Part shown: positions 4,093 through 25,586 of the stretch, piece after piece
Layout of the letters: the number at the start of each line of letters is the position of its first letter
Position numbering within the stretch: position 1 is the first letter of the stretch
NCBI RefSeq assembly: GCF_006716345.1
Contig: NZ_VFOX01000001.1
Span: 124,001-188,000 of the forward strand
Reading direction: 5' to 3'
DNA length: 64,000 bases
Source of the DNA: Microbacterium saperdae
GTDB taxonomy: Bacteria; Actinomycetota; Actinomycetes; Actinomycetales; Microbacteriaceae
Translations under genes and position numbers: made by a program
The notes under the pieces: generated by a model
What the model was told of the DNA's origin: nothing
The model's input: the letters and a program-made list of their open reading frames with translations, nothing else
Database searches by the model: none

Positions 4093-6996
4093 TCAGCAGG
4101 TCTTGGCGGCGAACGTCTCCGTGACCGTCGAGCCAGACACCGTCGCCTGCACCTCGCCCGCGGCCACCGAGGCGGCACGCGTGCTGAAGGTCACCGTCGA
4201 GGTCTTGCCCCCGGCGAGGTCCACGACCTGGGTGCCGTAGGCGGACGACACCGTGACCCGCGCGGCATCCGTGCCGGCATTGGCGACCTTCACCGTGAGG
4301 ACGACCTTGCCCGCCACACAGCGCGTCGACAGGTCGAGTCCGATGCCCGGGGTGACGGTGACCGTCGCCGTGACCGGCATGCGCGAGGCGTCCTGGGCGA
4401 CCCCGCGCACCGTGAAGGTGCCGGCTGCCGCGTAATCGGCCGGGTCGACGCCCTCCCACGCGACATCGACCGACGTGGTGGCACCGCTCGCCGTCGTCAA
4501 CGTCGCCTTCGGCAGCACGGGCGCGCTGCCGGCGCGGGTCGACACGGCGAGCGGGGCGACGTCGGTCACCGCGATCTCGGGCGCGAAACCCTCCAGCACC
4601 GTCTGGTACTCCGCGCGGGTCACCGGGATCACCGTGCCGTGCCGCGGCTTGCCGCCGTCGCTGTTCTGGGGCAGGTTCGCCCGCAGCGTCGAACCGAGCG
4701 CCTGCCACGACGAGCCGTCGGTGATGTCGTCGGATCCGAACGGGATGTAGTGGTTCGGTCCGCCGTGGTACGACGGCTGATCGATGAACAGATACCAGGA
4801 CAGGCCGTTCACGTCACCGGGGTTCGCGGCGAAGATGTTCGGTCCCTCACCGCTGGAGTAGGTGCCGCCGGGTTCGCCGTTCGGCAGCCCGGTCGCGATC
4901 CGCTCCTTCACCAGGGTCCACTCGTCGGCGCTGCCGCTCGTACCGGGCAGCGCACCGCTGATCGTGGCGAGCAGGTCGGTCGACTTCTCCTCGCGGATCG
5001 TCATCGATGCCTCGTCCTTCGTGAAGCGGTAGTAGACGCCGTCCTCTTCCGCGACGGTCGAGTCGATCAGACCGAGTCCCGTTCCGCGCCGCACGTCCGA
5101 CCAGATCTGCGGCTCGGAGAACGTCACGAAGTCATCCGTCGTCGCGTACATCATGCGGTTGTACGTCACGGCGGTGCGGGTGGACGCATCCGTGGTCGGG
5201 TAGAGGTTCGACGCCCAGAAGACGACGTAGCGCTGGATCTGCTCATCCCAGTACGCCTCCGGCGCCCAGGTGTTGCCCGCATACGCCGACGACACCTTCA
5301 CATGGCGCTGAGCGGACCAGTTCACGATGTCGGTGGACTCCCACACCTCGATGTACTGCGATCCCGAGATCTGCGCGGTCGAGAAGCCGCCGGCCAGGCC
5401 GTCGATCTTCAGGTCGGTCGCGAGCATGTAGAACTTGTCGCCCTCGTGCGAGCGGATGATGAAGGGATCGCGCAGACCCTGCGTGCCCTGGGTCGAGGTG
5501 AAGATCGGCTCGCCGCCGTTCAGCGTGTTCCAGCGCAGCGCGTCGTCGCCCTTCGACGCGGCGAGACTCACGCGCTCCGCGCCGGCACCTTCGCCGGTGA
5601 AGAACGTCCAGACGTAGGCTTCCTTCTCGGCGTCGTCCGCCGGCTGAGGGCGCACGGTCAGCGCGAACGTGCGCGTCGCCGTGGCGTTCCCGACGGATGC
5701 CGTGACCGAGAGCGTCGCGGATGCCGATGCCGAGCCGGCCGCCGGGCGGGTGATCGACACGGTCGCGGATCCGTCACGCACTCCCGCACGGAGCGCAGCG
5801 GACGCGGAACCTGCCGTGACGGTCCAGCTCAGAGTCGAACCGTTCGCGCCGGTCGTCGGGACCGAGAACGAGGCCCTGAGGTCGTCGGCATCGGCCACCG
5901 CGACGGCAGCCAGATCGGCATCGACCTTGGCCTGGTCGGAGAGCGCGGCGGGCACCGTGACCGTGAACGTCCGGGTGGTCAGCGCGCCGCCGACCGTGAA
6001 CGTCGCGGTGAGCGTGGCCACGGCATCCTCCGACCCGGGGGCGGGGCGGAGCACCGCCGCGGCACCGCCGGTGATCTGCACCGCGGGGCTGTCGGAGTCC
6101 CAGGAGATCGCGACCCCGCTCGTCGTGGTCGGCAGCGTGAACGCCTCGGTCGCGCTGGACGGGACAGTGACCGAGGCCACGGCCCGCTCGAGCGCCTGAT
6201 CCGAGAAGATCTGCTGCACCTGTGCGGAGCTGAGCGCGCTCCCGTAGACGGCGAAGTCGTCGACATCGCCCGCCCAGCCCGCGTCGTTGTACGTCGAGCG
6301 CCCGAGGTAGCCGACCAGGGACGAGCCGAACGACGACACGTCGCGCCCGATCGTGACCGACGAGATCTGCGCACCGTTGACGTACGTCGTCAGGGTGCCG
6401 GCGGTGCCGTCGATCACGCTCGTGTACAGCGACATCCCGGCGGGTGTGCGCGCCCCGGAGGTCGCGGCGTTCGTCGCGCCGGCGCCGACCTCGGTGCCCC
6501 ACGGAGCCCCCGCGTTCGTGGTGTTCGTCACGACGGACTTCACGTAGCCGCTCGGGTTGGCCGGGTTGAGCAGCCAGTAGCCGCTGGAGTAGCTCGCTCC
6601 CGAGGCGACGGGAGCACCGAGGAACGCCGCCGCCGTGTTGGCAGGACCCGTGCGTCCGCTCAGCCAGGTCGAGACCGTCAGCGTCTTCTTGCCGACGAGC
6701 CCCGAGGTCGGGATCTCGAGGTAGCCCGCGCTCGACGCGCTGCCTCCGGGCAGCGAGAGCTGTCCGTTCTCGACCTTGGCGCCGTTCTGCCTGAGCGTGG
6801 CGTCGTACCCGTTGCCGGTGGCGTCACCGACCGTCGCGCCGGAGGCGGCATCGAATGTGTAGTGGATGAGGGGCGTCGGCCCCTCGGCGGCGACCGAGGC
6901 CGTGTGCGTCGACACGGCTCCGATCGCCACCACGGTCGCGGCAGCGGCGGCCACGGCCGTCGCCTTGCGGATGCTCCTGGTGAGCAGACTCGTCAT
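4093..6996 (-). CDS. Secreted LamG-Ig-GH43 glycoside hydrolase
   Basis: A 967-residue exported enzyme. Residues 1-37 form a Sec signal peptide. Then come a LamG/concanavalin-like sandwich (about 42-265), two atrophied bacterial Ig domains (about 270-350 and 355-450), a five-bladed GH43 propeller (about 460-800), a Big_4 Ig domain (about 805-885) and a C-terminal two-cysteine module (892-967, Cys893 and Cys967) shared with three neighbours. GH43 catalytic residues read as Asp510 (GLRDPF), Asp645 (LIDST) and Glu717 (SGEGPN). GH43 enzymes mostly remove arabinofuranose, xylose or galactose residues; the subfamily cannot be fixed here. It lies 14 bases behind a related GH43 gene and is probably co-transcribed with it from the promoter near 10,060. 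Confidence 0.88.
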   Translation of the reverse strand: MTSLLTRSIRKATAVAAAAATVVAIGAVSTHTASVAAEGPTPLIHYTFDAASGATVGDATGNGYDATLRQNGAKVENGQLSLPGGSASSAGYLEIPTSGLVGKKTLTVSTWLSGRTGPANTAAAFLGAPVASGASYSSGYWLLNPANPSGYVKSVVTNTTNAGAPWGTEVGAGATNAATSGARTPAGMSLYTSVIDGTAGTLTTYVNGAQISSVTIGRDVSSFGSSLVGYLGRSTYNDAGWAGDVDDFAVYGSALSSAQVQQIFSDQALERAVASVTVPSSATEAFTLPTTTSGVAISWDSDSPAVQITGGAAAVLRPAPGSEDAVATLTATFTVGGALTTRTFTVTVPAALSDQAKVDADLAAVAVADADDLRASFSVPTTGANGSTLSWTVTAGSASAALRAGVRDGSATVSITRPAAGSASASATLSVTASVGNATATRTFALTVRPQPADDAEKEAYVWTFFTGEGAGAERVSLAASKGDDALRWNTLNGGEPIFTSTQGTQGLRDPFIIRSHEGDKFYMLATDLKIDGLAGGFSTAQISGSQYIEVWESTDIVNWSAQRHVKVSSAYAGNTWAPEAYWDEQIQRYVVFWASNLYPTTDASTRTAVTYNRMMYATTDDFVTFSEPQIWSDVRRGTGLGLIDSTVAEEDGVYYRFTKDEASMTIREEKSTDLLATISGALPGTSGSADEWTLVKERIATGLPNGEPGGTYSSGEGPNIFAANPGDVNGLSWYLFIDQPSYHGGPNHYIPFGSDDITDGSSWQALGSTLRANLPQNSDGGKPRHGTVIPVTRAEYQTVLEGFAPEIAVTDVAPLAVSTRAGSAPVLPKATLTTASGATTSVDVAWEGVDPADYAAAGTFTVRGVAQDASRMPVTATVTVTPGIGLDLSTRCVAGKVVLTVKVANAGTDAARVTVSSAYGTQVVDLAGGKTSTVTFSTRAASVAAGEVQATVSGSTVTETFAAKTC

Positions 6997-7010: not shown

Positions 7011-9974
7011 TCAGTTGCAGGTGCCTGCGGCGAGAGGGCTGGATCCGGTGAAGCTCTGGTCGCCCGGTCCGGTCGCCGTCACCGTGATGCTGCCGGCGGG
7101 AACGCTGGCGAGACGGGTGGCGAACGACGCCGAGGACGATGCGCCCGCGGCGAGCGACAGCGTCTTCGAGCCGTAGGGCGTCGAGACCGTCACGGATGCG
7201 GCGACCGTCGCCGCGTTGTGCACGTTGACCACGACCTGAGCCTTGCCGAGCACGCAGCGCAGGCTCGATGTGGTGGTGATGGTCAGCGTGCTGACGGGGA
7301 CCTCGGCCGAGGCCGACGTGGTGACCAGGCCGTCGCTGTAGCCGTCGTAGGTCGCCGTGACACCCGTGACCTCGGAGGGGATGTCGACCGCCGCGGTGCC
7401 TTCGGAGAGGGGGACCGTCGCGCTCCAGGCGCCGCCCGTGAACGTGACGGTTCCTGCGACGTCGCCGCCGTCGGCCGCCGTGACGGTTGCCGTGGCGCGG
7501 CGTGCCTCGACCTCGAGCGCGGTGGTCGACGTGACCGCCTCGATCGACGTCCAGTCGTGCATCGCGGTGAGCACGGTCTGAGGCACGCTGACGAAGGCGC
7601 CGTGACGCGGGCTCGCCGGGAGCCCGCCCGCGGGGCGGACGTTCCAGGTCGAACGCTGCGAGAGACGGTCGGACTGGCTGCTCGACGCGATCTCCGCACC
7701 CGTGGTGAGGAAGGCGCGGTATCCGCCCGCGCTGTAGTTGTCGACGAGGAAGACGTAGCCGTCACCCGAGGTGTTGTTCGGGTCACCCGCGTTGAGCTTG
7801 ATGATCTCGGGTCCTTCGCCCGCCTGCCCGGTCTCGAGCGTGGTCATCCGGGTGTCGGTGAGCTGCCAGGTCGTGGTCGGGTCGGCGCTCCAGTTCGACG
7901 AGGTCGTCGGTGCGGTCAGCACGGTCGAGCGCTCGAGGAAGATGTCCTTGCCGGCCTCGAGCGTGCCGGCGGCGCCGGACTCCTCGTTCTTGGTGAAGCG
8001 GTAGTAGTAGTCGCCGATCTTCGTGACCGTGGAGTCGATGCGCGCGTAGCCCGTGTCCTGCCAGCTGGTCGGCGGGTAGGTGAAGGTCCGGAAGTCGCGG
8101 GTGGTCACGTAGAACATCCGGGCGTACAGGTTGTCGCTGTTCGTGTGGCTCGCGTCGGAGTACTTCCGGGAGGCGAAGAACACCACGTACGATTCCAGAT
8201 CGTCATCCCAGTACGCCTCGGGCGCCCAGGTCATGCCCGCCTCGGGCTGGTTGATCGTGATGCCCGTGTTCTCGCCGTTGGTGCGCGTCCACGAGACCAT
8301 GTCGGTCGACTCCCAGACCTCGACCTTGAGGCTGCCCTGCGACTGGGCGGGACCCCAGCCGGTGCCGCAGCTGATGCAGAGGTCGGTGGCGATCATGTAG
8401 TACTTGTCGCCGTCGTGCGAGCGCAGGATGTACGGGTCGCGCAGACCGGTGGTGTCGGCGGTCGACGTGATCACGGCCTTGCCGTCGTTCACGGGCGAGA
8501 ACGTGAAGAAGTCGTTGCCGCTCGTCGCCGCCTGGTAGATCTTCTCGTCGCCATCCGACTTGAAGTAGGCGCTGGCGTAGCCGGCATCCGGCGCGGTGCG
8601 CGCGTGCTCGGCGACCGTCACCGTGAACTCGCGCGACAGCGTCGTGCCGTTCAGCGTCGCGCGGGCGGTGAGGGTGACGTCGCGGTCGCCCGTGCCGTAT
8701 GCCGGGCGCTCCACGATGCCGCCGCCGCGGTACGGATCGGCCGCGCCGACGGAGGGGGCGACGTAGGCGGCATCCGTGGCGGTGACCAGGTCCTCGTCCG
8801 AGGACGACCAGGTGATGGTCGAACCATCGACCGCGCCCTTCGTCACCAGCGCGAGATTCTCGGTGGTGCGCTCGGACAGGTCGATCGCGTCGAGATCGGC
8901 GGAAGCGGATGCGGCAGCCACGGTCACGGTGAAGGTGATCGGCGACCCGGAGGCCGGCGTCGCGGTGATCGTCACCGTGGTGTCGGTCGAGACCGCACGC
9001 GAGACCACGCCGGTGTTCGAGATCACCGAGGCGTCGGACGACGACCAGGTGAGGGACACGCCGTTCGAGGACGCGGGGAAGGTGAGGTTGCTGCGCACCG
9101 CGTCGAGCGTGGCGTTGGCTCCCTTGATGACGGGCAGCAGATCTCCGCGGAGCAGCGCCTGCGTGGTCGCGGACTTCTCCGACGAGGTCGGCATGCTCGC
9201 CGTCACCTGGTCGGCGGTCAGTGACGTGTCCCAGAACCGCACGTCGGTGACGTCGGCGGCGAGCAGCGCGTCGCCCGTGTAGAGCGAGCGGCCCAGGTAG
9301 CCGAGGGTGCCGGAGGTGGGCACGATGGAGCTGAGGCTGGAGGAGTGCGTGGTCGTCGAGATGACCTGGCCGTCGCGATACAGCGTGAGGGTGTTGCCGC
9401 TGCCGACCATGGTGAGTGTCGTGAAGCCGGGGTTGAGGCCGCCGCCGGCGGGAAGGCGGACCTCGCCGTTGCCCGTGGGGGTCTTGACCCGGATTCCGGA
9501 GAGCACCTGGTTGCTGTAGCCGCCCTCGCCCGAACGCGGGTTCACGAAGACGTGGTTGCCGAGGGCGGTGGTGTTCCATGCTCCGACGCCGTTGCCGATC
9601 ACCCAGCCGAACTGATTCCCGGCCGTCTGCGTGGCCACGGTGTACTCGACCGTGAAGTCGTTGTCTGCACCGGAGACGAGACCCTGGGGGAGTGCCGCGT
9701 AGCCGTCCTTCTTGAAGCGCAGCACATCGTCGCCCGCCGCGTCGACGAACGAGGCGTCCGTGAACCCGGTCAGTGTGGCATTGCGCCCGTTGCCTGAGAC
9801 GTCGAGCAGCGTGGCGCCCGAGTGCGACATGTCGTAGTGCGCGCTGGGCGTCGGCACGTCGGCGGCGAACGCCGCGGACGGGGTCAGGGCGCACAGCGAT
9901 GCGGCGAGGGTCCCGACGACGGCTGCGGCTGTCAGCCGCCTGCGCGGGGGTGGGGAGGGGCGGGATGCGCTCAC
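7011..9974 (-). CDS. Secreted LamG-Ig-GH43 glycoside hydrolase
   Basis: A 987-residue paralogue of the next gene downstream. It starts at GTG, with AGGAGA seven bases upstream. Residues 1-37 are a Sec signal peptide ending SAAFA; then LamG (about 42-262), two Ig-like repeats of the NGVSLTWSSSD type (about 265-352 and 355-455), a GH43 propeller (about 460-800), a Big-type Ig stretch and the C-terminal module (about 905-987, Cys907 and Cys986). The catalytic triad reads Asp513 (GLRDPY), Asp647 (RIDST) and Glu720 (AGEGPE). First gene of a two-gene operon behind a TGTTNNCGSTAACA-type operator. The role is extracellular removal of (probably arabinose) side chains from plant polysaccharide; exact specificity is not visible. 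Confidence 0.88.
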   Translation of the reverse strand: MSASRPSPPPRRRLTAAAVVGTLAASLCALTPSAAFAADVPTPSAHYDMSHSGATLLDVSGNGRNATLTGFTDASFVDAAGDDVLRFKKDGYAALPQGLVSGADNDFTVEYTVATQTAGNQFGWVIGNGVGAWNTTALGNHVFVNPRSGEGGYSNQVLSGIRVKTPTGNGEVRLPAGGGLNPGFTTLTMVGSGNTLTLYRDGQVISTTTHSSSLSSIVPTSGTLGYLGRSLYTGDALLAADVTDVRFWDTSLTADQVTASMPTSSEKSATTQALLRGDLLPVIKGANATLDAVRSNLTFPASSNGVSLTWSSSDASVISNTGVVSRAVSTDTTVTITATPASGSPITFTVTVAAASASADLDAIDLSERTTENLALVTKGAVDGSTITWSSSDEDLVTATDAAYVAPSVGAADPYRGGGIVERPAYGTGDRDVTLTARATLNGTTLSREFTVTVAEHARTAPDAGYASAYFKSDGDEKIYQAATSGNDFFTFSPVNDGKAVITSTADTTGLRDPYILRSHDGDKYYMIATDLCISCGTGWGPAQSQGSLKVEVWESTDMVSWTRTNGENTGITINQPEAGMTWAPEAYWDDDLESYVVFFASRKYSDASHTNSDNLYARMFYVTTRDFRTFTYPPTSWQDTGYARIDSTVTKIGDYYYRFTKNEESGAAGTLEAGKDIFLERSTVLTAPTTSSNWSADPTTTWQLTDTRMTTLETGQAGEGPEIIKLNAGDPNNTSGDGYVFLVDNYSAGGYRAFLTTGAEIASSSQSDRLSQRSTWNVRPAGGLPASPRHGAFVSVPQTVLTAMHDWTSIEAVTSTTALEVEARRATATVTAADGGDVAGTVTFTGGAWSATVPLSEGTAAVDIPSEVTGVTATYDGYSDGLVTTSASAEVPVSTLTITTTSSLRCVLGKAQVVVNVHNAATVAASVTVSTPYGSKTLSLAAGASSSASFATRLASVPAGSITVTATGPGDQSFTGSSPLAAGTCN

Positions 9975-10133: not shown

Positions 10134-10182
10134 TTGACGTGCAGATGACGGGGATCGTAGGGTATCGATGTTCCCGCTAACA
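10134..10182 (+). promoter_or_regulatory. Promoter and operator of the WxL-like surface cluster
   Basis: A -35 TTGACG (10134-10139), 18-base spacer and -10 TAGGGT (10158-10163) precede TGTTCCCGCTAACA at 10169-10182, which matches the regional operator consensus and would overlap the transcription start. It leaves a leader of about 160 bases before the gene at 10332. The shared operator puts this surface cluster in the same regulon as the GH43 enzymes (inference). Confidence 0.65.
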
Positions 10183-10331: not shown

Positions 10332-10958
10332 ATGAGCAAGAAGAGCATGGCCGCGCGCTGCGCCGTCGGAGTCGTCGGCGGTCTGATGCTCGCCGGTGTG
10401 GGCGTCGCCGCCTTCGCCGACCCGAGCGAGAACGGATCCGGCGACGTCGATGTCACGGTCGACATCGCCTCCACCGAGACCGGCGCGCTGAGCCTCACCG
10501 TCGCGGGAACCGAGACGTCGCTCACGGAGACCGGGTCGACCGCGTCGTTCCGGCAGTTCACGGGGGCCCTGCCGAACGTCACGGTGACGGACACCCGCGA
10601 GGACGTCGACGCCGGGGTCTTCTGGTACGTCACCGGTCAGGCGAGCGACTTCGTCGGCGCCGCGGGCCAGGCGAGCATCACCCCCGATCACCTCGGCTGG
10701 ACGCCGAGCATCGTGACCGCCAATGACGGCGAGGTCGCCGAAGGAGACACGGTCGGCACCTCGATCGACGGCGGCGTGAACGGCGTCGGCCTGGTCGGCC
10801 AGGAGCTGCTCGCCCTCGCCCTCGACTCGGCGGACGCGCAGGCGGCATCCGGGCAGTGGACCGCGACGGCGAACCTCGTGCTGAAGACCCCGGTCACCGT
10901 CGCGCCCGGCTCGTACACCTCGACGCTGACGCTGTCGCTGTTCGAAGACTCGTACTGA
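10332..10958 (+). CDS. Secreted WxL-domain-like surface protein
   Basis: A 208-residue exported protein with a Sec signal peptide (cleavage after AAFA, residue 29). The mature part is beta-rich: LPNVTVTDTRED...AGVFWYVTGQASDFVG, then GWTPSIV, and a C-terminal strand YTSTLTLSLFED. This layout resembles actinobacterial relatives of the WxL cell-wall-binding domain, with LTLSL in place of the Firmicutes LTWxL motif. It heads a tight cluster with a DUF916-like protein (25 bases downstream) and a small LAGTG-anchored protein, the partners that accompany WxL proteins in Firmicutes csc clusters. It probably binds the cell surface and helps hold or present polysaccharide; it has no catalytic domain. 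The assignment is by pattern and context, not by a profile search. Confidence 0.7.
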   Translation: MSKKSMAARCAVGVVGGLMLAGVGVAAFADPSENGSGDVDVTVDIASTETGALSLTVAGTETSLTETGSTASFRQFTGALPNVTVTDTREDVDAGVFWYVTGQASDFVGAAGQASITPDHLGWTPSIVTANDGEVAEGDTVGTSIDGGVNGVGLVGQELLALALDSADAQAASGQWTATANLVLKTPVTVAPGSYTSTLTLSLFEDSY

Positions 10959-10983
10959 GTCCCCCTCGTCCGCCGGAGACATC

Positions 10984-12060
10984 ATGACGACCCGCCCCCG
11001 CACGTGGATCGCGTCGAGCGCCGCGGCTCTGCTCGCGCTGCTCGCAAGCGTGGCGCTCCCCTCGAGCGCGCTCGCCGAGGATGCGCAGGCTGACGCGGTC
11101 TCGTGGTCGGTGTCTCCGGCGGACAGTACCGGCGCAGACGGCCGCGTCACGATCGAGCACCAGCTGGACCCCGGCGAGAGCGTCGAGGAGCACGTGCTCG
11201 TGCGCAACCTCGGCGCGGGCGATGTCGTCTTCTCGCTCTCCGCTGCGGACGGCTTCTACACCGAGGCGGGCAGGTTCGACATGCTCGCCTCCGATCAGGA
11301 GTCGACAGGTGCCGGCACCTGGATCGCCATCCCGGACGACGTCGAGATCCCGGCGGGTGGCTCTGCGGTCATCCCCTTCACGATCACCGTGCCCGAGAAC
11401 GCGGAACCCGGAGATCACGCGGCCGGTGTCGCGGCATCCGTCATGTCGGTCAAGACGGACGACTCCGGGACGACGGGGGTCGGTGTCGAGAGTCGTGTCG
11501 GGGTCAAGGTCATCACCCGCGTCGCGGGAGCGATCACCCCTGCTTTCACCGTCGGCGGTGTGCAGACCGACTTCCGGGTCGACGCGAACCCCTTCGAGGC
11601 CGGTGAGCTCACGGTCACCTTCGATGTGCAGAACACCGGAAATGCACGGATGGATGCCGCGGGCACCCTGAGCATCGCGGGTCAGCAGGTCGCCTTCCCC
11701 GCCGAGGGTCAGCGCCCGCAGGTGCTGCTCCCCGGTGAGACCCGCTCGTTCACGCTCGCGATGACCGGCGTCTGGCCCCTCGTCCTCCTCTCGGGTGATC
11801 TGACGGTCGCACCTGTCGCCGCATCGCTCGACGGAGAGACGCTCGCCGTGGCGTCCTCGACGACGCCGGTCACGGTCTGGGCGATGCCCTGGCCGCAGCT
11901 GCTCGTCGTCGCCGGGGTCGCGCTGCTGGTGTTCGCCCTGCTCTGGAACCGCATCCGCTCCCGTCGTCGGGTCGAGGACCTGATCTCGCAGGCCGTCGAG
12001 CGCGGCCGCAAAGAGGCTCTGGCTCTCCCGGACCACGGCCGAGAGAAGATCGCCGGATGA
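10984..12060 (+). CDS. DUF916-like membrane-anchored surface protein
   Basis: A 358-residue protein with a Sec signal peptide (ends SSALAED, about residue 32), two Ig-like beta domains with DUF916/WxL-partner features (LDPGESVEEHVLVRNLGAGDV, then IPAGGSAVIPFTITVPENAE and PGDHAAGVAAS; second domain about 185-285), one membrane helix (about 300-322) and a basic cytoplasmic tail (RIRSRRR). A GGAGA site is four bases before the ATG. In Firmicutes, DUF916/DUF3324 proteins bind WxL proteins and peptidoglycan and are encoded beside them; the same arrangement is seen here. It likely ties the preceding WxL-like protein to the envelope. It overlaps the next gene by ATGA. Confidence 0.72.
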   Translation: MTTRPRTWIASSAAALLALLASVALPSSALAEDAQADAVSWSVSPADSTGADGRVTIEHQLDPGESVEEHVLVRNLGAGDVVFSLSAADGFYTEAGRFDMLASDQESTGAGTWIAIPDDVEIPAGGSAVIPFTITVPENAEPGDHAAGVAASVMSVKTDDSGTTGVGVESRVGVKVITRVAGAITPAFTVGGVQTDFRVDANPFEAGELTVTFDVQNTGNARMDAAGTLSIAGQQVAFPAEGQRPQVLLPGETRSFTLAMTGVWPLVLLSGDLTVAPVAASLDGETLAVASSTTPVTVWAMPWPQLLVVAGVALLVFALLWNRIRSRRRVEDLISQAVERGRKEALALPDHGREKIAG

Positions 12061-12287
12061 CGTTCCCCCTCGCGCTCGCCGACGATACGGATGTCGATGC
12101 CACCGGCCGGTTCGGCGGTGTGCAGATCCACGTCGAGATCCTGCCGCTCCGCACTCCGCCGCCCGTCGAAGGCCTCGCCGGCACCGGTGCGGATCTGCCG
12201 CTGCTGCTGATCGCCGCCGGCATCGCACTGCTCGTCGTCGGTGCGATCGTCCTCGGCCGGTGGGTCAGGAGGCGATCCGCGGCCTGA
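12057..12287 (+). CDS. Small sortase-signal (LAGTG) membrane protein
   Basis: A 76-residue protein overlapping the DUF916-like gene by four bases. The C-terminus is a complete sorting signal: LAGTG at residues 40-44, a hydrophobic helix (about 48-68) and the tail RWVRRRSAA. LAxTG is the motif preferred by actinobacterial class E sortases. The N-terminal 35 residues contain a short strand, VQIHVEI. No N-terminal signal peptide is visible (MTFPLALADD...), which is odd for a sortase substrate; no alternative start giving one was found upstream in the frame. It corresponds in position and size to the small LPxTG protein of Firmicutes csc/WxL clusters. Confidence 0.75.
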   Translation: MTFPLALADDTDVDATGRFGGVQIHVEILPLRTPPPVEGLAGTGADLPLLLIAAGIALLVVGAIVLGRWVRRRSAA

Positions 12288-12402: not shown

Positions 12403-13428
12403 ATGACCACCGATTCCGCACCAGCCGGCGGTTCACGCAAGCCGAGCATCTACGACGTCGCCGATCGTGCGGGTGTCTCGCACATGACGGTCTCGCGCGT
12501 GCTCAACGGCCATCCGAACATCCGCGCGTCCACCAGGGACAAGGTGATGACGGCGATCGACGAGATGCACTACACGCGCAGCTCGATCGCCCGCGCCCTC
12601 GCGACCAACCGGGCCATGCGGATCGGCGTGATCATCGACAATCCCGGCTTCTACGGTCCGAACAGCGTCCTGCGCGCGATCGAGGTTGCCGCCAGGCAGA
12701 ACGGCTACGCCGTGAGCAGCTTCTCGGTCGGCGAGGCGGATGGCCGCCGGGTCGATGCCGGTGTCGTCGAACTGGTGACGCAGGGCGTCGATGCCCTGTG
12801 CGTGATCGCGCCGCGCGCCTCTTCCCTCGATCTGCTGCGCCAGCAGGCGATCTCGGTGCCCACGCTGGTCGTCAAGGAGGAGCCGGACGCGCAGATGCAC
12901 ACGGCATCCGTCGACCAGCGGGCGGGGGCGACGGCGGCCGTGCGTCATCTGATCGACCTCGGGCACCGCACGATCCTGCACATCGCGGGCCCGCCCGACT
13001 GGTTCGATGCGAAGGCCCGCACCGAGGCCTGGCAGGCGGCGCTCGAGGCGGAGGGGCTGCCGGTCGTGCCGCCTCTCATCGGCGACTGGTCCTCCGATTC
13101 CGGCTACGCCTTCGGCCGCGAGCTCGAGCTCGGAGGCGCGACGGCGGTCTTCGTCGCCAATGACCAGATGGCGCTCGGTGTCATGCACGGGCTGGCGGAG
13201 CGCGGCATCCGTGTACCGGACGACGTGAGCGTCGTCGGTTTCGACGATGTGCCGGATGCGCGGCACTACCAGCCGCCGCTCACCACGGTGCGCCAGCACT
13301 TCGCGCTGCTGGGCGAGGTCGTCATCGGCGAACTGGTCGCCGCGATCGAGGGCGAGGAGACCGGGGAGCGCGAGCTGATCCAGCCCGAACTCCGCGTACG
13401 CTCCTCGACGGCGGCCCCTCGGGCCTGA
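12403..13428 (+). CDS. LacI-family transcriptional regulator
   Basis: A 341-residue LacI/GalR regulator. The ATG at 12403 follows a GAGGGGGG purine-rich site. The helix-turn-helix is IYDVADRAGVSHMTVSRVLNG, the hinge segment SSIARALATNRAM, and the sensor domain ends with VVGFDDVPDARHYQPPLTTV. It strongly resembles the regulators at 21771 and 37081 (shared GVDALCVIAPR, HIAGP-DW and VANDQMALG segments). It sits between the WxL-like cluster and the GH30-like gene, so it probably controls arabinan/arabinogalactan functions, either through the TGTTNNCGSTAACA sites or the two GTTGACGTCAAC sites just downstream. Which motif it reads cannot be decided from sequence alone. Confidence 0.92.
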   Translation: MTTDSAPAGGSRKPSIYDVADRAGVSHMTVSRVLNGHPNIRASTRDKVMTAIDEMHYTRSSIARALATNRAMRIGVIIDNPGFYGPNSVLRAIEVAARQNGYAVSSFSVGEADGRRVDAGVVELVTQGVDALCVIAPRASSLDLLRQQAISVPTLVVKEEPDAQMHTASVDQRAGATAAVRHLIDLGHRTILHIAGPPDWFDAKARTEAWQAALEAEGLPVVPPLIGDWSSDSGYAFGRELELGGATAVFVANDQMALGVMHGLAERGIRVPDDVSVVGFDDVPDARHYQPPLTTVRQHFALLGEVVIGELVAAIEGEETGERELIQPELRVRSSTAAPRA

Positions 13429-13475: not shown

Positions 13476-13535
13476 GTTGACGTCAACAGAGGGCTTCCCT
13501 ATGCTCATTGTTACCGCTCACTGTTGACGTCAACA
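13476..13535 (+). promoter_or_regulatory. Promoter of the GH30-like gene with two GTTGACGTCAAC operators
   Basis: A near-ideal promoter, -35 TTGACG (13477-13482), 17-base spacer, -10 TATGCT (13500-13505), is flanked by two copies of one palindrome: GTTGACGTCAAC at 13476-13487, embedding the -35, and TGTTGACGTCAACA at 13522-13535, just after the expected start near 13512. Centres are 47 bases apart. A half-site TGTTACC (13509-13515) lies between them. The layout suggests repression by a LacI-type protein bound at both sites, possibly with looping. Confidence 0.8.
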
Positions 13536-13552
13536 CACTCTGAGGACAGACG

Positions 13553-16500
13553 ATGAAGTCGAAGAGAACCATTTCCGCGCTCGGGATCGGCGGCATCGCC
13601 GCGGGCATGCTCGTCGCGGGCAGCCCCGCGGCCGTAGCGGCCGCCGTCCCCCTGACGATCACACCCAATCCGGCCTACGCGTCCGAGCCCTTCGAGGGGT
13701 GGGGAACCAGCCTCGTCTGGTTCGCCAACGCCACGGGCGGTTATCCGGAGGACGTCCGCCAGGACCTCCTCGACAAGGTGTTCGGTGAGGAGGGGCTCAA
13801 CCTCAACATCGCCAGATACAACATCGGCGGGGGCAACGCCACCGATGTTCCCGGGTACCTGCGCCCCGGCGGCGCGGTCGACGGCTGGTGGAACCCCGAT
13901 CTGGCCAGCTCCACGTACGCCGACCGTGCCGACTATCGTGCCGCCTGGGACGGCGACGACCCGGCGAGCTACGACTTCGACGCGGATGCCACGCAGCGCT
14001 GGTGGATCGACGCGCTCAAGGACAAGATCACGCACTGGGAGGCGTTCAGCAACTCCCCGCCCTACTTCCTCACCCAGAGCGGCTACGTGTCGGGCGGTAT
14101 CGGGAACGGGACCAGCGAGCAGCTCGCCCCGGCCGATATGGAGGCGTTCGCCGACTATCTCGTCACGGTGGTCGAACGCATCGAGCAGGAGCACGGGATC
14201 GACTTCGAGAGCCTCGATCCGTTCAACGAGCCCAACACGAACTACTGGTCCACGACGCTGGGCGGCAACGGCTGGCCCACCTCGGCGAGCCGCCAGGAGG
14301 GCGCCCACGTCGGGCCCGTCGCGCAGGACCAGATGATCAAGGTCCTCGCCGCGCGGCTGGCCGAGGACGGGACCACCACCGACGTCCCCATCTCGGCGAT
14401 GGACGAGACCAACCCGGGGATCTTCGCGACGAACTGGAACGCGTGGAGCGACGAGGCCAAGGCCGAGGTCGCACAGCTCAACGTGCACACGTACGGCACC
14501 TCGGGCCGGCTCGTGGTGCGCGATATCGCCAAGAGCGCCGGCAAGCCGCTCTGGATGAGCGAGGTCGAGGGCGACTGGGACGGAACCGGGTACAACCTCA
14601 CCAACATCGAGAACGGTCTCGGCATGGCCGGGCGCATCGTCGACGACCTGCGCGAGCTCGAGCCGAGCGCCTGGGTCTTCTGGCAGCCGGTCGAGGACAC
14701 GTACAACATGGAGAAGGTCGAGGACAAGAACTGGGGTTCGGTGTTCGTCGACTTCGACTGCAATGCCGACGGCGACTCGGAGCGGCGCATCGCCGACGGC
14801 GATGCCGACCCGAGCTGCCAGGTGCAGACCAACGCGAAGTACAACACCGTGCGCAACTTCACGCACTACATCCAGCCCGGTGACGCGCTGATCCCGACCG
14901 ACAACACGCAGACCACTGCGGCTGTCGACGCCGACGGCGACGGTCTCACGCTCGTCCACGTGAACTCCGAGCCCACAGAGCGCCGGATCACGATCGACCT
15001 CTCGCGCTTCGGCTCAGTGGGTGCGGGTGCGACGGTGACCCCGATCGTGACCACGCAGTCCAAGACCGAGAACCCCGAGAGCAACGCCCTCGTGCAGGGC
15101 GCCGCCGTGGCGGTCGACGCCGCGAACCGCACCGCGACGATCACGGTGCCCGCGAAGTCGGTCACCACGCTCCTCGTCTCCGACGTCTCGGGCGTCGCGG
15201 ACTCCGCCACCGCGCTGCGCGACGGGCGCGACTATCAGCTCTTCGGGGTGCAGAGCGGCAAGGCCCTCGCTGCGAACGGCACGGCTGCCGTCATCCGCAC
15301 CTCGGCCACCACCGCGGATGCCGCCACCGCGCAGACCTGGACCGTGCAGAGCCTCGAGGGTGAGGGCACCGACCGTCATCGGTTCGCCCTGCGCGCGGGT
15401 GACGGCCGCTATCTCGCCGAGTCGGGAGGCGCGGTCGCCGTCGTCAGCGCGAGTGCCGAGGATGCGGCATCCGACCCTGCTCTGCAGTGGATCTCGTCGA
15501 CCACGGACGGCAAGACCTTCTCGATGCTCAGCGTCTCGAGCGAGCGGGTGCTCGACGTCAACGGCCAGAGCAGCGCCGATGGCGCGAGCGTGGGGTTGTG
15601 GACGTCGAACGACGGCTCGAATCAGCGGTGGACCCTCGCCGACACCGAGATGCTCTCGGTGAAGGACGTCGCGACCGGCACCGCGCCCGGCGTCGCCCCC
15701 GCGCTCCCCGCCACCGTCACGCTGAGGTATCGCGGCGGCATCGAGCGCACGGCCGCTGTCACCTGGGCGACCGCGGGCGTCGACTGGTCATCGCCCGGTG
15801 CCCGCACGGTCAGCGGCTCCGGAACCGACCTGTTCGGCGCGCCCTTCCAGGCCACTGCGACGGTCGAGATCGGCAGTGTCGGCTTCTCTGAGCCCGTGTC
15901 CGTCACGACCTATGCGGGGGTGCCGCTCGCCACCGTGCAGGCTTCCGCGCCCGGCACGGTTCCTGCTGTGGTCGGCGCGAGCGATCAGCGGATCGACACC
16001 GCCGTCACGTGGAACTGGGGCGGGATCTCCGCCGCGTCGTTCGCGAGCCCCGGGGTCGTCACTGTTCCGGGAAGCGCGCAGGCGCCCGGCGGCATCGCAC
16101 TGACGGCGACGCTGTCGGTCATCGTCACCGAGCCGACCGCGGCGAACGTGGCACCGGCGAGCACGGCATCCGCCACGTTCACCGAGAGCTCGAGCTATGG
16201 CGTCGATCGCACCAAGAACGGCGTGACGACCGACAAGGGCTGGTCGAACTGGAGGTCCGGCACCAAGAACGCGCAGGACACGCTGACCTACACGCTCGCC
16301 GCGAGCTCGACCATGCAGAACGCGAAGCTCTTCTTCTACAAGGACGGCTCGTCGAACACGTGGCCCCAGTCGCTGTCGGTCGAGTACCGCCTGGGAACGG
16401 GGGCATGGACGTCGCTCGGTGCGGTCGATGTGCCCGTGCCCGCCGACGGCTCGGCCCCGATCGTCGAGGTGCCGATGAAGGGCGTGCAGGCGGATGCCGT

Positions 16501-17125
16501 GCGCGTGGTGATGAACGCCCGCTCCGCGACCCACCTGGTCGTGTCCGAGGTCGAGCTCTCCGCCTCGGCGCCCGGCGTCTCGTCGGTCGCCGCGCTCGCC
16601 GCAGTATCGCTCGACGGCACGCCGCTGGCCGGCTTCTCGCCCGAGGTCACCGAGTACGAGGTGCCGTGGCGAGCGGGAGAGCGCCCCACCGTGCGCGCTG
16701 TCGCCGTCGACCGGGCAGCGTCGGCGGAGGTCTCGCAGCCGGATGCCGACGGAGAGGCGGTGATCGTCGTCACGGCGCCGTCGGGTGCGACGCGCACCTA
16801 CACGCTCGCCTTCGTGGATGCGGTGGAGCCCTCACTCGGTGCGACCGTCGCGACCAGCGTGCGCTGCGTCGCCGGCAAGGCGCAGCTGGTGCTCTCGGTC
16901 ACCAACTCCAGTGACGTCGCCACCGACATCACGCTGACGACGCCGTACGGCACGAAGTCGCTCAGGGGCGTGGAGCCGGGCGCGCGCCCCTCGGCGATCG
17001 CGCAGGCCACCAGGCTCGTATCGTTCCCGGCGGGCAGTGTGCAGGTGGACCTGGCTGCGGATGCCGGCGGCACCCGCGTCACGGAGAGCCTGCAGGTGGC
17101 GTACCTGCCCGGCTCCTGCGGCTGA
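13553..17125 (+). CDS. Secreted modular GH30-family hydrolase, probable endo-beta-1,6-galactanase
   Basis: A 1190-residue exported enzyme. Signal peptide 1-30. The catalytic TIM barrel with side beta-sheet (about 35-540) opens with FEGWGTSLVWFAN, very like GH30 endo-beta-1,6-galactanases, and ends with a beta strand region ending VTTLLVSDV. Acid/base Glu226 (FNEPNTNYW) and nucleophile Glu337 (WMSEVEGDWDG) are present. Then a ricin-type trefoil (about 555-700, QRWTL repeats), two Big_4-type Ig domains (about 700-860), a discoidin-like sandwich (about 865-1005), a cadherin-like segment (about 1010-1085) and the shared C-terminal module (1103-1190, Cys1105 and Cys1189). It would cut the beta-1,6-galactan side chains of type II arabinogalactan after GH43 trimming. 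Another GH30 specificity is possible. Confidence 0.8.
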   Translation: MKSKRTISALGIGGIAAGMLVAGSPAAVAAAVPLTITPNPAYASEPFEGWGTSLVWFANATGGYPEDVRQDLLDKVFGEEGLNLNIARYNIGGGNATDVPGYLRPGGAVDGWWNPDLASSTYADRADYRAAWDGDDPASYDFDADATQRWWIDALKDKITHWEAFSNSPPYFLTQSGYVSGGIGNGTSEQLAPADMEAFADYLVTVVERIEQEHGIDFESLDPFNEPNTNYWSTTLGGNGWPTSASRQEGAHVGPVAQDQMIKVLAARLAEDGTTTDVPISAMDETNPGIFATNWNAWSDEAKAEVAQLNVHTYGTSGRLVVRDIAKSAGKPLWMSEVEGDWDGTGYNLTNIENGLGMAGRIVDDLRELEPSAWVFWQPVEDTYNMEKVEDKNWGSVFVDFDCNADGDSERRIADGDADPSCQVQTNAKYNTVRNFTHYIQPGDALIPTDNTQTTAAVDADGDGLTLVHVNSEPTERRITIDLSRFGSVGAGATVTPIVTTQSKTENPESNALVQGAAVAVDAANRTATITVPAKSVTTLLVSDVSGVADSATALRDGRDYQLFGVQSGKALAANGTAAVIRTSATTADAATAQTWTVQSLEGEGTDRHRFALRAGDGRYLAESGGAVAVVSASAEDAASDPALQWISSTTDGKTFSMLSVSSERVLDVNGQSSADGASVGLWTSNDGSNQRWTLADTEMLSVKDVATGTAPGVAPALPATVTLRYRGGIERTAAVTWATAGVDWSSPGARTVSGSGTDLFGAPFQATATVEIGSVGFSEPVSVTTYAGVPLATVQASAPGTVPAVVGASDQRIDTAVTWNWGGISAASFASPGVVTVPGSAQAPGGIALTATLSVIVTEPTAANVAPASTASATFTESSSYGVDRTKNGVTTDKGWSNWRSGTKNAQDTLTYTLAASSTMQNAKLFFYKDGSSNTWPQSLSVEYRLGTGAWTSLGAVDVPVPADGSAPIVEVPMKGVQADAVRVVMNARSATHLVVSEVELSASAPGVSSVAALAAVSLDGTPLAGFSPEVTEYEVPWRAGERPTVRAVAVDRAASAEVSQPDADGEAVIVVTAPSGATRTYTLAFVDAVEPSLGATVATSVRCVAGKAQLVLSVTNSSDVATDITLTTPYGTKSLRGVEPGARPSAIAQATRLVSFPAGSVQVDLAADAGGTRVTESLQVAYLPGSCG

Positions 17126-17200: not shown

Positions 17201-17231
17201 TCGACGTCACGGAATGTTTCCGCTAACATTC
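17201..17231 (+). promoter_or_regulatory. Promoter/operator of the double-GH43 gene
   Basis: GAATGTTTCCGCTAACATTC (17212-17231) is an inverted repeat with seven-base arms and contains TGTTTCCGCTAACA, matching the regional operator. The operator's TAACAT (17224-17229) is also a plausible -10, 17 bases after TCGACG (17201-17206), so a bound repressor would block the promoter directly. Confidence 0.68.
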
Positions 17232-17279
17232 TGGGAGAGTCGCGCTGAGGCGGCTCGCCCACGAACCGAGGACTCATCG

Positions 17280-20200
17280 ATGACGCTGCCTCCCCTCCCC
17301 CCTGTCGCTTCGCGCGTACGCCGCACCGGTGCGCGCCGCTCCCTCGTCGCCGGGCTCGCCCTGAGCGCGATCGTCGCGTCCCCGCTCGCCGCGGTGACTC
17401 CGGCCTCCGCGGCGGAAGACGAGCATCTGCAGCTCCGATACGCCTTCGACGAGACGGCAGGCACGACGGCGCACGACAGCTCCGGCAACGGCCGTGACGG
17501 CGTCATCGTCGGCGGGGCGGCGCTCACCGGCACCGAGGGGATCGCTCTGGACGGCGTCGACGACCACGTGGCGCTGCCGGCGAACACGCTCGCCGGGCTC
17601 ACCTCGATCACGGTCAGCACCGAGGTGCTGGTCGCCCCGGCGCAGAAGACGGCGTACATGATCTGGGCGATGGGCAACACCGACGCCTCGGGCGTCGGCA
17701 ACGGATATCTGTTCTCCACCGGCGACGCCTACCGGGCCGCGATCGCTTCGGGGAACTGGTCGACCGAGCAGGGCGTGAACAGCGCGGCGAACCTCGCCCG
17801 CGGTTCGTGGAAGACCCTCACCTACACGCTCGACGACGCCACCGACACGAGCAGGCTCTACCTCGACGGGGTGCAGGTCGCCCAGAACACCGGCGTCACG
17901 ACCACCCCCGCGCAGATCGGCTCCGGCGTCACTGCGGCCAACTACATCGGGCGCTCGGTCTACTCCGCTGACAGATTCCTGCTGGGCAACGTGCGCGACT
18001 TCCGCATCTACGACGTCGCACTGTCGGCCGGTGAGGTCGCAGCGCTGGTCACCGACGACGCCGTGCGGGTGCAACGCGACCGCGCCGCGCTGAGCATCGG
18101 CGACACCGGTGCGGTGACCGCCGACCTCGTGCTGCCCTCCACCGGGGTGAACGGCACGACGGTGACCTGGTCGTCGAGCGACGCCGACGCCGTCTCTGAT
18201 GCGGGCATCGTCACGCGTCCCGCCGCAGGGGACGCCGATGCGACGGTGACGCTCACGGCGACCCTGACCCGAGGCGGATCCTCGGCCACGAAGGAGTTCG
18301 CCGTCACCGTTCTGGCACAGCCCGGAGCGGATGCGCGCGCGCAGGCCGACCTCGATGCGATCGTGATCCCCGGTGCCGCCGACATCCGTGGCAACATCAC
18401 CCTGCCGACCGATGGCGCAGTGAACGGCTCGGCCGTCACCTGGAGCGCTTCGCCCGCAGGCGCCATCACGACCCGTGCGCAGGACGGCAAGGCCGCAGGC
18501 GTGGTCACCCGAGGCACCGCCGACCAGCAGGTCGTGCTCACCGCGACCGTCGCCGGAACCACCGCGACCCGCAGCATCCCGGTGACGGTCACCGCTGCGC
18601 CGCAGGGCCTCGACACCGACTACACCGCCGGGTACCTGTGGACGCACTTCGCGACCGAGGGCGGATACGAGAAGATCTTCCTCGGCTACAGCCAGGACGG
18701 CCTCCAGTGGTCGAAGCTCAACGACGACGCCGCGATCCTCGCGAACCTGGCCGGCGACCTCGGGGTGCGCGACCCCCACCTGGTCCGTGCCCCCGAGGGG
18801 GACAAGTACTGGATCATCGGCACCGATCTGCATGCGGAGGGCGGCGGGACCGGCGGCTCCGGCTGGGACCAGCTCAACGCCAGCCAGAACATCGTGGTCT
18901 GGGAATCGACCGACCTCGTGAACTGGAGCGACCAGCGCATCGTCTTCGCCGGGTTCGACCAGGCCGGATGCGTGTGGGCACCGGAGGCGACCTACAACGA
19001 GGCGACCGGCGAGTACTACGTGTACTGGTCCGCCCGCGATCGCAGCGAGAACGGCACCGACGACTGGGCGCTGCGCGTGTACCTGACCAAGACCCGCGAC
19101 TTCGTCACGTTCTCGGAGCCCGAGGTCTGGCTCTCGCTCAACGAACAGGGCGACGGCGCCGGCGGCGCGAACATTATCGACACGACGATCGCCGAGAAGG
19201 ACGGCGTCTTCTACCGGTTCTCGACCTCCGACTGGCAGACCGTGGTCGACACGGCCACGAGCCTCGACGGTCCCTGGACCCGTGTGATCGATCGCGGGGA
19301 GGCGGCGGCTCACGGACTCAAGGCCTCGATGGAGGGGCTGACCGTGTATCAGCTGCCCGACGGACGCTGGGCGGTGATGGGCGACCAGAGCGGATACTAC
19401 GCACACGTCGCCGACTCGCTGGCGAGCCTCGACTTCACCCAGTTGGCGGTCGGCACCGGGGCTGACCAGTACTCCTTCGACAAGGCGTTCCGGCATGGGT
19501 CCGTGCTCCGACTCTCGGCGCAGGAGCAGGAGCGGCTACTGGCCGCCTACGGCGAGAACCCGGTCGAGCCGGAGCAACCGTCCGAGGAGGCGATCGCCGA
19601 GTACACCTTCGACGACGGCACGCTCCAGGACTCGGCGGGCTCGGCGGATCTGACCGCATCGGGCACCGCGGCCGTGGTCACGGATGCGGAGCGGGGCAAG
19701 GTGCTCCGCGTCGACGGATCGACCAACGGCTTCGCATCGTTCCCGCAGGGCTTCTTCGACGGTCGCCGCACCATGACGGTGTCGATGGATGTGAAGAGCG
19801 AGAAGTCCAGCGGCAACTTCTTCACGTTCGCGTTCGGCAAGGACTCGAACGCGTACTACTTCCTCCGGGTGCGGGGTGCTGACGTGCGCAGCGCCATCAC
19901 GAAGGCCTCGTACCAGAACGAGTCGGCGGTGACCGGGTCGGTCTCCTCCGGGCAGTGGCACCACTACGACCTCGTCTTCGACGGGGCGCGGATGACGGTG
20001 TACGTCGATGGAGTGAGACTCGGCGAGAATGCCGCGCTGAACACCGCCGTCGACGGTCTCGGGACGAACCTTCTCGGCTACCTCGGCAAGTCGATGTACG
20101 GCGCCGACGGCTACTTCCAGGGCTCCTTCGACGATGTGAAGGTCTACAACCGGGCGCTCACCGCATCCGAGATCCTCACCCAGGCCGGGGCGTTCGACCA

Positions 20201-21711: not shown

Positions 21712-21741
21712 TTGCACCGTGAAGCCTGTTCTCGGTAACAT
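21712..21741 (+). promoter_or_regulatory. Promoter/operator of the LacI-ATPase operon
   Basis: TGTTCTCGGTAACA (21727-21740) matches the regional operator. Its TAACAT (21736-21741) can be the -10, 18 bases after -35 TTGCAC (21712-21717). This is the same operator-on-minus-10 design as at 17,224 and 24,412 and implies autoregulation of the following lacI gene. Confidence 0.7.
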
Positions 21742-21770: not shown

Positions 21771-22790
21771 ATGGCCAGCCTCGGCTCCGACAAGCCCGGC
21801 ATCCGCCACGTGGCAGATCTCGCCGGCGTCTCGCACATGACGGTGTCGCGGGTGCTCAACGGTCATCCGAACATCAAGCCGGACACGCGTCGGCGCGTGC
21901 TCGAGGCGATCGAGGAGCTCGACTACCGCCCGAACATGGTGGCCAGGGCTCTGGCGACTCAGCGCACCCACCGCATCGGCGTCATCATCGAGAGTGCCGT
22001 GTCGTTCGGGCCGACCAGCATCCTGCGCGCCGTCGAGATGGCCGCGCGCACCTCGGGCTATTCAGTCAGTGCCGTCGCCCTGCATGAGGGCGACACGCTG
22101 ACACCGCAGGACGCGGTCGACAACCTCACCACCCAGGGCGTCGACGCGCTGTGCGTGATCGCTCCCCGGTCGTCGTCGGTGGCGGCACTCCGGCGCATCT
22201 CGCTGAGCGTGCCCATGCTCGTCGTCAAGGCGGATGCCGACCCCACCTTCCTCACGGTCTCGATCGATCAGCACGCGGGCACCTCGCTCGTGGTCGATCA
22301 TCTCGTCGCCCTCGGGCATCGCGACATCCTCCATATCGCCGGTCCGCTCGATTGGCTCGACGCCAGGGCCCGCGAACGCGCGTTCCACACCAGGGCCAAG
22401 TCCTGGGGCATCCGTGAGCGCCCCATCGTCGTCGGCGACTGGACCGCGGACTTCACCTATGACTTCGCGAAGGGGCTCACCCGGCTGCCCGACTACACGG
22501 CTGTCTTCGTCGCGAACGACGACATGGCGATCGGTCTCATCCACGGACTGCACGACCGCGGATTCGAGGTTCCCAAGGACCTCAGCGTGGTCGGTTTCGA
22601 CGACGTGCCGTTCGCCCGCCACTTCCTGCCGCCGTTGACCACCGTCCGGCAGGACTTCGCGGCCCTCGGTGCCGCCGTCGTCGAGATGCTTCGCGCCGCC
22701 CTCGAAGAGCGCGAGCTGCCGAAGCTGACCCGCATCCCGACCGAACTCGTCGCCCGCGGCTCCAGTGCCGCCCCCCGGCAGGTGCGCTGA
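21771..22790 (+). CDS. LacI-family transcriptional regulator
   Basis: A 339-residue LacI/GalR regulator. ATG 21771 is preferred to GTG 21765 because the GTG lies inside the GGAGG ribosome site. Helix-turn-helix: IRHVADLAGVSHMTVSRVLNG; hinge: NMVARALATQRTH; sensor domain ends VVGFDDVPFARHFLPPLTTV. A TGTTNNCGSTAACA operator covers its own promoter, and the same motif precedes the adjacent furanose importer and the GH43/WxL genes, making this protein the best candidate for the regional regulator. The stop codon overlaps the next start (TGATG), so it is translationally coupled to a CUT2 ATPase, an unusual pairing for a regulator. Confidence 0.92.
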   Translation: MASLGSDKPGIRHVADLAGVSHMTVSRVLNGHPNIKPDTRRRVLEAIEELDYRPNMVARALATQRTHRIGVIIESAVSFGPTSILRAVEMAARTSGYSVSAVALHEGDTLTPQDAVDNLTTQGVDALCVIAPRSSSVAALRRISLSVPMLVVKADADPTFLTVSIDQHAGTSLVVDHLVALGHRDILHIAGPLDWLDARARERAFHTRAKSWGIRERPIVVGDWTADFTYDFAKGLTRLPDYTAVFVANDDMAIGLIHGLHDRGFEVPKDLSVVGFDDVPFARHFLPPLTTVRQDFAALGAAVVEMLRAALEERELPKLTRIPTELVARGSSAAPRQVR

Positions 22791-24331: not shown

Positions 24332-24333
24332 GG

Positions 24334-24417
24334 TGTGTCCGGTAACAACGAATTCATCACGAACCGCCCCCGAATCTCCGGATGTGCTTGTGTTCCGAAA
24401 ATTGTTCCCGGTAACAT
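24334..24417 (+). promoter_or_regulatory. Tandem operators and promoter of the furanose importer
   Basis: Two copies of the regional motif: TGTGTCCGGTAACA (24334-24347) directly after the ATPase stop, and TGTTCCCGGTAACA (24403-24416). The second overlaps a plausible promoter, -35 TTGTGT (24388-24393), 18-base spacer, -10 TAACAT (24412-24417). Centres are 69 bases apart, so cooperative binding or looping is possible. A 97-base leader follows; nothing else is recognised in it. Confidence 0.7.
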
Positions 24418-24513
24418 GATCCACGCGACGCCCCTCCAGGCGTCCTGTCATCACATCTGGACCGGCACGGTCCACCCCCGGGAAACGACCCGGAATCTCG
24501 AGGAGGAGATCAA

Positions 24514-25515: not shown

Positions 25516-25529
25516 GCACCACCCCGTGA

Positions 25530-25564: not shown

Positions 25565-25586
25565 CCGGACAGACGGAGAGACAACG

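Follow-up and report, generated by a model that had tools for sequence, protein, structure and literature searches.

A WxL-type gene trio among probable plant-polymer hydrolase genes of Microbacterium saperdae, with a short sortase-signal protein resembling the first strand of its partner

More than 91% of WxL sequences come from Bacillota (PMC9772566), in which csc clusters (cscA-D) encode a WxLIP, a small WxL protein, a large WxL protein with the WxL domain at its C-terminus (PMC9772566), and a small LPxTG protein. A role in the use of plant polysaccharides has been proposed for these clusters (PMC1534035). A hairpin strand of WxLIP is predicted to fit a gap in the WxL protein and to complete its beta-sandwich (PMC10599100). 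A 2006 study did not settle what the short LPxTG protein does and described these peptides as having very low mutual likeness and being unalignable (PMC1534035). We analyzed a 64,000-nucleotide stretch of the Microbacterium saperdae genome (contig NZ_VFOX01000001.1, positions 124,001 to 188,000; hereafter, the window) containing three genes, g1, g2, and g3, for a WxL-like protein, a WxLIP (DUF916)-like protein, and a small sortase-signal protein. A strand of g3 was found to resemble the N-terminal strand of g1, and four secreted proteins encoded around the trio share a C-terminal domain (CTD). The observation made in a preliminary description of this DNA is confirmed, and its interpretation as an inducible surface assembly for arabinan or arabinogalactan is supported in part.

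All three open reading frames (ORFs) were confirmed on one strand. A gap of 25 bp separates g1 from g2, and g2 overlaps g3 by the 4 bp ATGA, in agreement with the tight gene order initially described. The searches yielded 768 relatives of g1 and at least 323 of g2 at E ≤ 1e-3 (for g2, with the 7998 best candidates scored), which identifies both as real genes rather than chance frames. A profile search of the genome (4.3 Mb, two contigs) revealed a single g1 and a single g2. The closest named g2 relatives among the matches listed belong to Microbacterium, with 87% identity in M. oxydans. For comparative analysis, the best 80 of 343 confirmed g2-profile matches were combined with the window into a set of 81 loci (L numbers), a choice that favors close relatives; the 80 loci include Microbacterium, Agromyces, Rathayibacter, Frigoribacterium, Brachybacterium, Cellulomonas, Glycomyces, Arthrobacter, Tessaracoccus, and Bifidobacteriaceae. 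In 68 of the 81 loci, a g1 gene was located upstream of g2 at a distance of no more than 700 bp. Among the other 13, three start at a contig end (L006, L037, L074), and four have g1 1.5 to 4.4 kb upstream (L014, L043, L063, L075). Divergent versions of the cluster were present in metagenome bins of Bifidobacteriaceae (L045, L048, L066, L069, L077, L081), two of which, L048 and L081, come from the same bin, Pcl387_bin9. In a draw of 246 genomes from the phylum, g2 was found in 40.

The relationship of the trio to WxL and WxLIP proteins is very probable. The g1 family aligned with Bacillota WxL proteins (hhalign 92.7%, E 4.2e-7) over 148 columns, in which the D-x-R turn and the C-terminal strand are matched. 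This remote homology bears out the first description of g1 as WxL-like, but assignment through Pfam failed: 41 g1 sequences together matched 12 families at E ≤ 1, none of them PF13731. A Paenibacillus WxL protein, the positive case, was matched by the model. The previously reported alteration of the WxL motif concerns its second copy, which lacks Trp, while the first-motif residue W98 is conserved throughout the alignment; two Trp-x-Leu motifs are therefore not present in g1, the first reading WYV and the second LTLSL. Searches of g1 and g2 against PDB chains, with single sequences and with profiles, gave nothing at E < 0.03, and matches to thiolase, kinase, and other PDB sequences were judged to be due to chance. 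In the structure model of g1, four residues separate the N-terminal strand from the next one. Outside this genome, WxL-like domains of the g1 type occur in long frames (G435:C2:917549 and others), some beside g2 paralogues such as the one at 918129 in G435, and large WxL proteins probably exist elsewhere in the order.

The g2 protein comprises an N-terminal hydrophobic segment, two immunoglobulin-like (Ig-like) domains, and a C-terminal transmembrane helix. At the family level, PF06030 (DUF916) matched 43 of 43 aligned g2 sequences at E ≤ 1 (best 2.3e-9), but g2 of the window itself scored 16.8 bits against a cut-off of 27.3, and the Pfam model found nothing in the whole genome at E ≤ 0.001. 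PF11797 (DUF3324), the second domain, did not match g2 of the window at E ≤ 1 and was not among the 25 families shown of the 39 matched by the 43 g2 relatives. The best structural matches of the g2 model, 9i25 and 9i1y, cover both Ig-like domains with 13% identity, so that the predicted fold is that of a two-domain WxLIP followed by a membrane helix. A low-confidence loop of this model, with invariant residues G167, E169, S170, R171, and G173, may correspond in position to the hairpin that WxLIP is predicted to insert into WxL.

The description of g3 as a small sortase-signal protein stood up: after its LAGTG motif come a hydrophobic segment and then an RRR tail, and NCBIfam gave sub-threshold matches to two LAxTG models. 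No obvious signal peptide was found in g3 of the window; one is apparent in some relatives. Where g3 is seen, its start lies mostly inside the stop codon of g2. A separate g3 or a long g2 tail was found in 48 of the 81 loci, and g3 is therefore not universal beside g2. Nine loci have fused g2-g3 frames (L024, L026, L028, L029, L033, L040, L052, L064, L077), which appear to be natural gene fusions; a signal-peptide-like segment lies between the two parts, followed by the g3 strand and a linker, and seven of the nine tails carry an LPxTG or LAxTG motif. Class E sortases prefer LAxTG. The genome encodes such an enzyme (229 bits, cut-off 160), as the preliminary description supposed, and g3 has the corresponding signal; anchoring of g3 by this sortase is a proposal. 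A class C (pilus-type) sortase was also found elsewhere in the genome (G000:C2:88259-88633; 239 bits, cut-off 160).

Besides the sorting signal, g3 relatives have a VxVxVxIxP strand in common, and the same alternating pattern, VDVTVDIA, occurs near the mature N-terminus of g1. The likeness was assessed with 32 g3 sequences, some of them near-identical kin: 23 separate ORFs selected by the sorting signal alone and nine long g2 tails selected by length alone. All 32 contained the alternating strand, compared with 2.8% of shuffles. The motif built from them had its best match at the N-terminal strand in every g1 protein (68 of 68), also in the 40 of 40 from loci not used for learning. This set replaced a first motif test (48 g3 sequences, 67 of 68 g1 proteins), which was partly circular because separate g3 ORFs had been preselected by the alternating-strand pattern. 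An initial comparison by best 9-mers was noisy: the match fell in the N-terminal region for 24 of 42 loci, compared with 6.1 expected, and that of the window itself lay outside it.

A similar likeness was observed in Bacillota. Among 22 loci fetched, all from plasmids, the 10 with an annotated or apparent CscD were used; L093 and L107, with CscD candidates lacking a sorting signal, were excluded, and viral contigs provided no useful cluster. In L102, two WxL-type proteins were compared. Examples of paired strands are TEVRSVETEGTIGFTG in CscD beside EVRNVTTDGTIEFTA in WxL, and AYDSNGVTSFFG beside SYTSNGAVDFIP. The best 9-mer shared by CscD and WxL fell within the first 25 residues of mature WxL in 10 of 14 pairs (7 of 10 loci), with 2.1 pairs expected from shuffles, and eight pairs from five loci exceeded their own shuffles at p < 0.05. 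The test failed in L102, L105, and L106, and in L096 and L101 the match lay in the right region and did not exceed shuffles; L095, L103, and L104 are closely related to one another. The type of strand differs between the phyla (SNGxIxF in some Bacillota, DGVxVxVxI in the actinobacterial loci) and goes with that of its partner, a pattern that favors matching over a general effect of composition. Combined with the published prediction that WxLIP fills the WxL gap, these strand data suggest donor-strand joining with g3 as a wall-anchored donor. That the g3 strand binds in the g1 groove seems to us an evenly balanced proposition.

The position of the trio among GH43 and GH30-like glycoside hydrolase (GH) genes was reported initially and is evident from Table 1. 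Four secreted proteins encoded on both sides of the trio end with the CTD, a domain of about 90 residues with the conserved pattern RC...GK...N...G...R...C, and a profile search found no other copies in the genome. Seven CTDs scanned gave no Pfam or NCBIfam family above the cut-off, and the dockerin model was not among their matches. A model iterated inside the same 81 loci detected 171 copies in 72 of them, 167 no more than 12 residues from the protein end. Of the CTD proteins sampled for Pfam domains, one per locus from 44 of the 58 eligible loci (complete, up to 1250 aa), 29 matched GH43 and 27 Laminin_G_3 at E ≤ 1e-3. GH43 genes also adjoin the g1-g2 pair on two plasmids.

In a draw of 198 genomes from the order, g2 was present in 24 of 28 genomes with the CTD and in 27 of 170 without it (p 5e-13). 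Where a close g2 was present, the CTD occurred in 18 of 19 genomes. Four genomes had the CTD without g2 (G266, G308, G317, G417), and in six further ones, including G230, both were present and the CTD was not near g1 or g2. These co-occurrence figures come from a hand-compiled tabulation, in which 81 of 129 CTD copies lay within 25 kb of g1 or g2; it omits CTD matches weaker than 1e-9 (G267, G278, G355, G421), a g2 match weaker than 1e-10 (G247), some other weak or isolated copies, and the copies of the four genomes without g2. The CTD occurred in 5 of the 246 genomes of the phylum draw, in one of them weakly. A large WxL protein was not found by profile in this genome. It is possible, with somewhat less than an even chance, that the CTD is a docking tag of the enzymes in place of the large WxL protein; a kinship of the CTD with the large WxL domain was dropped, its sequence having no Trp motifs.

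The preliminary description held that the trio and the enzymes have the same operator. The exact 14-mer occurs in the window only at 10169, but sites of the form TGTTNNCGNNAACA precede g1, the GH30-type gene, and the GH43 gene, as well as the second LacI gene and the gene for the transporter binding protein. With up to three mismatches the 14-mer had 10 matches at eight places of the window, compared with 1.83 expected; one with two mismatches, at 10056 on the minus strand, lies upstream of the divergent gene 7011-9974. In 34 of 68 loci TGTTNNCGNNAACA was present within 350 bp before g1, compared with 0 of 6800 mononucleotide shuffles; the remaining 34 loci, which include the closest named relative, L003, lack it. 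A LacI-type helix-turn-helix was encoded in 31 of the 81 loci. An L-arabinose isomerase gene is located at 40674 (791 bits, over the cut-off). Since operator-type sites precede two of the enzymes, the second LacI, and the transporter, and the isomerase is encoded in the window, arabinan or arabinogalactan is a likely substrate, and the trio probably has a surface role in its use. The transporter region contains two YtfR-like ATPase genes (22790-24331 and 25587-27221) on either side of the binding-protein gene. The best NCBIfam match of 29897-31765 (minus strand) was aceric acid hydrolase, at 330 bits against a cut-off of 950; as a guess, its product is possibly another arabinose-type glycosidase.

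Table 1. Features of the trio locus; positions refer to the window
Feature	Position	Strand	Basis or detail
g1, secreted WxL-like protein	10332..10958	+	208 aa; ORF, family search, remote WxL homology, structure model
g1 residues 39-47, VDVTVDIAS, N-terminal strand and possible donor	10446..10472	+	predicted strand 39-48; g3-motif match
g1 first WxL motif counterpart, W98-Y99-V100	10623..10631	+	invariant in 41/41 aligned sequences
g1 second WxL motif counterpart, LTLSL, Trp lost	10926..10940	+	sequence and alignment
g2, WxLIP (DUF916)-like protein	10984..12060	+	358 aa; PF06030 in relatives, structure model
g2 low-confidence loop, residues 156-173	11449..11502	+	dip in predicted local distance difference test (pLDDT); VGVESRVG conserved
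g3, small LAGTG protein, CscD-like	12057..12287	+	76 aa
g3 strand VQIHVEILP, resembling the g1 N-terminal strand	12120..12146	+	motif tests
g3 LAGTG sorting motif	12174..12188	+	then hydrophobic segment and RRR tail
Secreted GH43-like/LamG protein, GH43 below cut-off	4093..6996	-	CTD 4096-4335
Secreted protein, aBig_2 domains the only Pfam match	7011..9974	-	CTD 7014-7280
LacI-family regulator	12403..13428	+	Pfam/NCBIfam
Secreted GH30-type enzyme with ricin-type lectin domain	13553..17125	+	Pfam; CTD 16844-17122
Secreted GH43/LamG enzyme	17214..21644	+	start 17214 or, more likely, 17274; CTD 21375-21641
YtfQ/YtfR/YtfT/YjfF-like sugar ATP-binding cassette (ABC) transporter	22790..29328	+	best NCBIfam matches score below the equivalog cut-offs
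LacI-type operator candidate before g1	10169..10182		14-mer search
Operator-type site TGTTGACGTCAACA before GH30-type gene	13522..13535		pattern search
Operator-type site before GH43 gene	17215..17228		pattern and mismatch search
Operator-type site before second LacI (21771-22790)	21727..21740		pattern and mismatch search
Operator-type site before binding protein of ABC transporter	24403..24416		pattern and mismatch search

On balance, we slightly favor the view that the trio is an actinobacterial WxL-type surface assembly switched by a LacI-type repressor together with arabinan-type hydrolases. The g2 protein in the membrane would hold g1 by strand lending, as predicted for Bacillota WxLIP and WxL, and g1 would be a beta-sandwich whose N-terminal strand fills its own groove or that of a neighbor. 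The g3 ectodomain carries a like strand, followed by a linker and the sorting signal; once the class E sortase has attached it to the wall, g3 could act as a covalently anchored donor strand, seating g1 singly or in a short chain. Should g1 have a gap like that predicted in WxL, one groove would have three candidate occupants: the N-terminal strand of g1 itself, the loop of g2, and the strand of g3. Secreted enzymes would dock onto this assembly via the CTD, which would replace the large WxL protein. A broader and more tentative version extends to both phyla: CscD/g3 would be a donor strand tethered to the wall that copies the N-terminal strand of WxL and plugs a WxL groove first held open by WxLIP, with cellulosome-like docking of arabinan hydrolases via the CTD in Actinomycetota. 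On this reading, WxL clusters would be strand-exchange machines that combine a chaperone in the membrane with covalent anchoring to the wall.

A competing explanation is a plain adhesion platform in which g1 and g2 bind peptidoglycan and each other, g3 is a wall stub, and the strand likeness stems from a preference of export or of signal peptidase. It agrees with the published view of WxL and WxLIP (PMC9772566, PMC10599100), and mature N-termini of secreted proteins may share composition. Yet the g3 motif locates the g1 strand in every one of the 68 proteins, while its first version scattered over g2, and the likeness tracks each phylum's own version of the strand; we consider this explanation rather unlikely. 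Some points nevertheless qualify the strand likeness and the CTD-g2 association. Motifs obtained by column permutation of the first motif still matched a mean of 21 and a maximum of 64 of the 68 g1 strands, so that part of the signal is plain valine alternation. Related loci are not independent in the strand test, and the CTD-g2 p value is overstated because the genomes are related.

Donor-strand joining might also build a true fiber, or pilus, in which many g1 subunits are linked, g2 serves as the membrane chaperone, and g3 forms the base, in a manner comparable to TasA/TapA. This is unlikely, as is a long g1 polymer in general: the four-residue spacing in the g1 model may suit self-complementation, and no report of WxL fibers appeared among the listed results of the literature search. 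Less probable still is that the trio serves the envelope in general, has no connection with glycan use, and only happens to lie here, with the CTD as an independent domain of actinobacterial hydrolases. The 27 of 51 g2 genomes of the order draw lacking the CTD, the 4 of 28 CTD genomes lacking g2, and the 48 of 129 tabulated CTD copies away from g1 and g2 are in its favor. Presence of the CTD in 72 of 81 g2 loci and in nearly all close-g2 genomes, the recurrent operator-type site, and the GH43 genes beside the pair on two plasmids speak against it.

Some relatives are already named "DUF916" or "WxL domain-containing" in databases, so homology alone is not new. In literature outside subscription journals, we found neither a donor-strand reading of WxL clusters nor a WxL study centered on Actinomycetota, and no prior account of the CTD was noted in the literature, where it was looked for only indirectly. 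The trio extends the WxL/WxLIP system into Actinomycetota, and its locus also shows which enzymes are likely clients. The resemblance of the g3 strand to that of its partner offers a testable answer to the open role of the short LPxTG protein and hints at how such assemblies may hold together, while the CTD provides a handle on how common actinobacteria may keep plant-polymer enzymes on the cell.

Like the csc clusters of Bacillota, the trio brings together a WxLIP-like protein, a WxL-like protein, and a very short sortase-signal protein. Both are also linked to sugar control, through CcpA and the catabolite-responsive element (CRE) in csc clusters and through a LacI-type site in the trio, and for both a role in plant polysaccharide use is proposed. 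The trio differs in its actinobacterial host, the loss of the second WxL Trp, the combination of LAxTG with a class E sortase, the CTD-sharing enzymes, and the lack of a large WxL protein in the genome profile search. WxLIP of Enterococcus faecium (PDB 9i1y, 9i25) has two Ig-like domains as g2 does, although identity is 13% and PF11797 was not found in g2 of the window. In Lactobacillus brevis, which unlike the trio's host belongs to Bacillota, WxL proteins bind cellulose and arabinoxylan, and WxL proteins and an LPxTG protein are up-regulated on arabinoxylan plus xylanase (PMC9026416). A Gram-positive precedent for strand donation is Bacillus subtilis TapA, which donates its N-terminus to TasA (PMC10151520). 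If our proposal is right, the trio shares its strand-donating logic with the TasA/TapA filament and with chaperone-usher pili; the modeled g1 fold shows some resemblance to FimA, and fimbrial chaperones are among the structural matches of the g2 model. Unlike both systems, the trio would use sortase anchoring, and chain formation is only a proposal. In the cellulosome, a small C-terminal domain, the dockerin, which pairs with cohesin, is common to many hydrolases encoded near scaffold-like genes. The CTD is likewise a small C-terminal domain of several hydrolases encoded beside scaffold-like genes, and may dock them in a comparable way.
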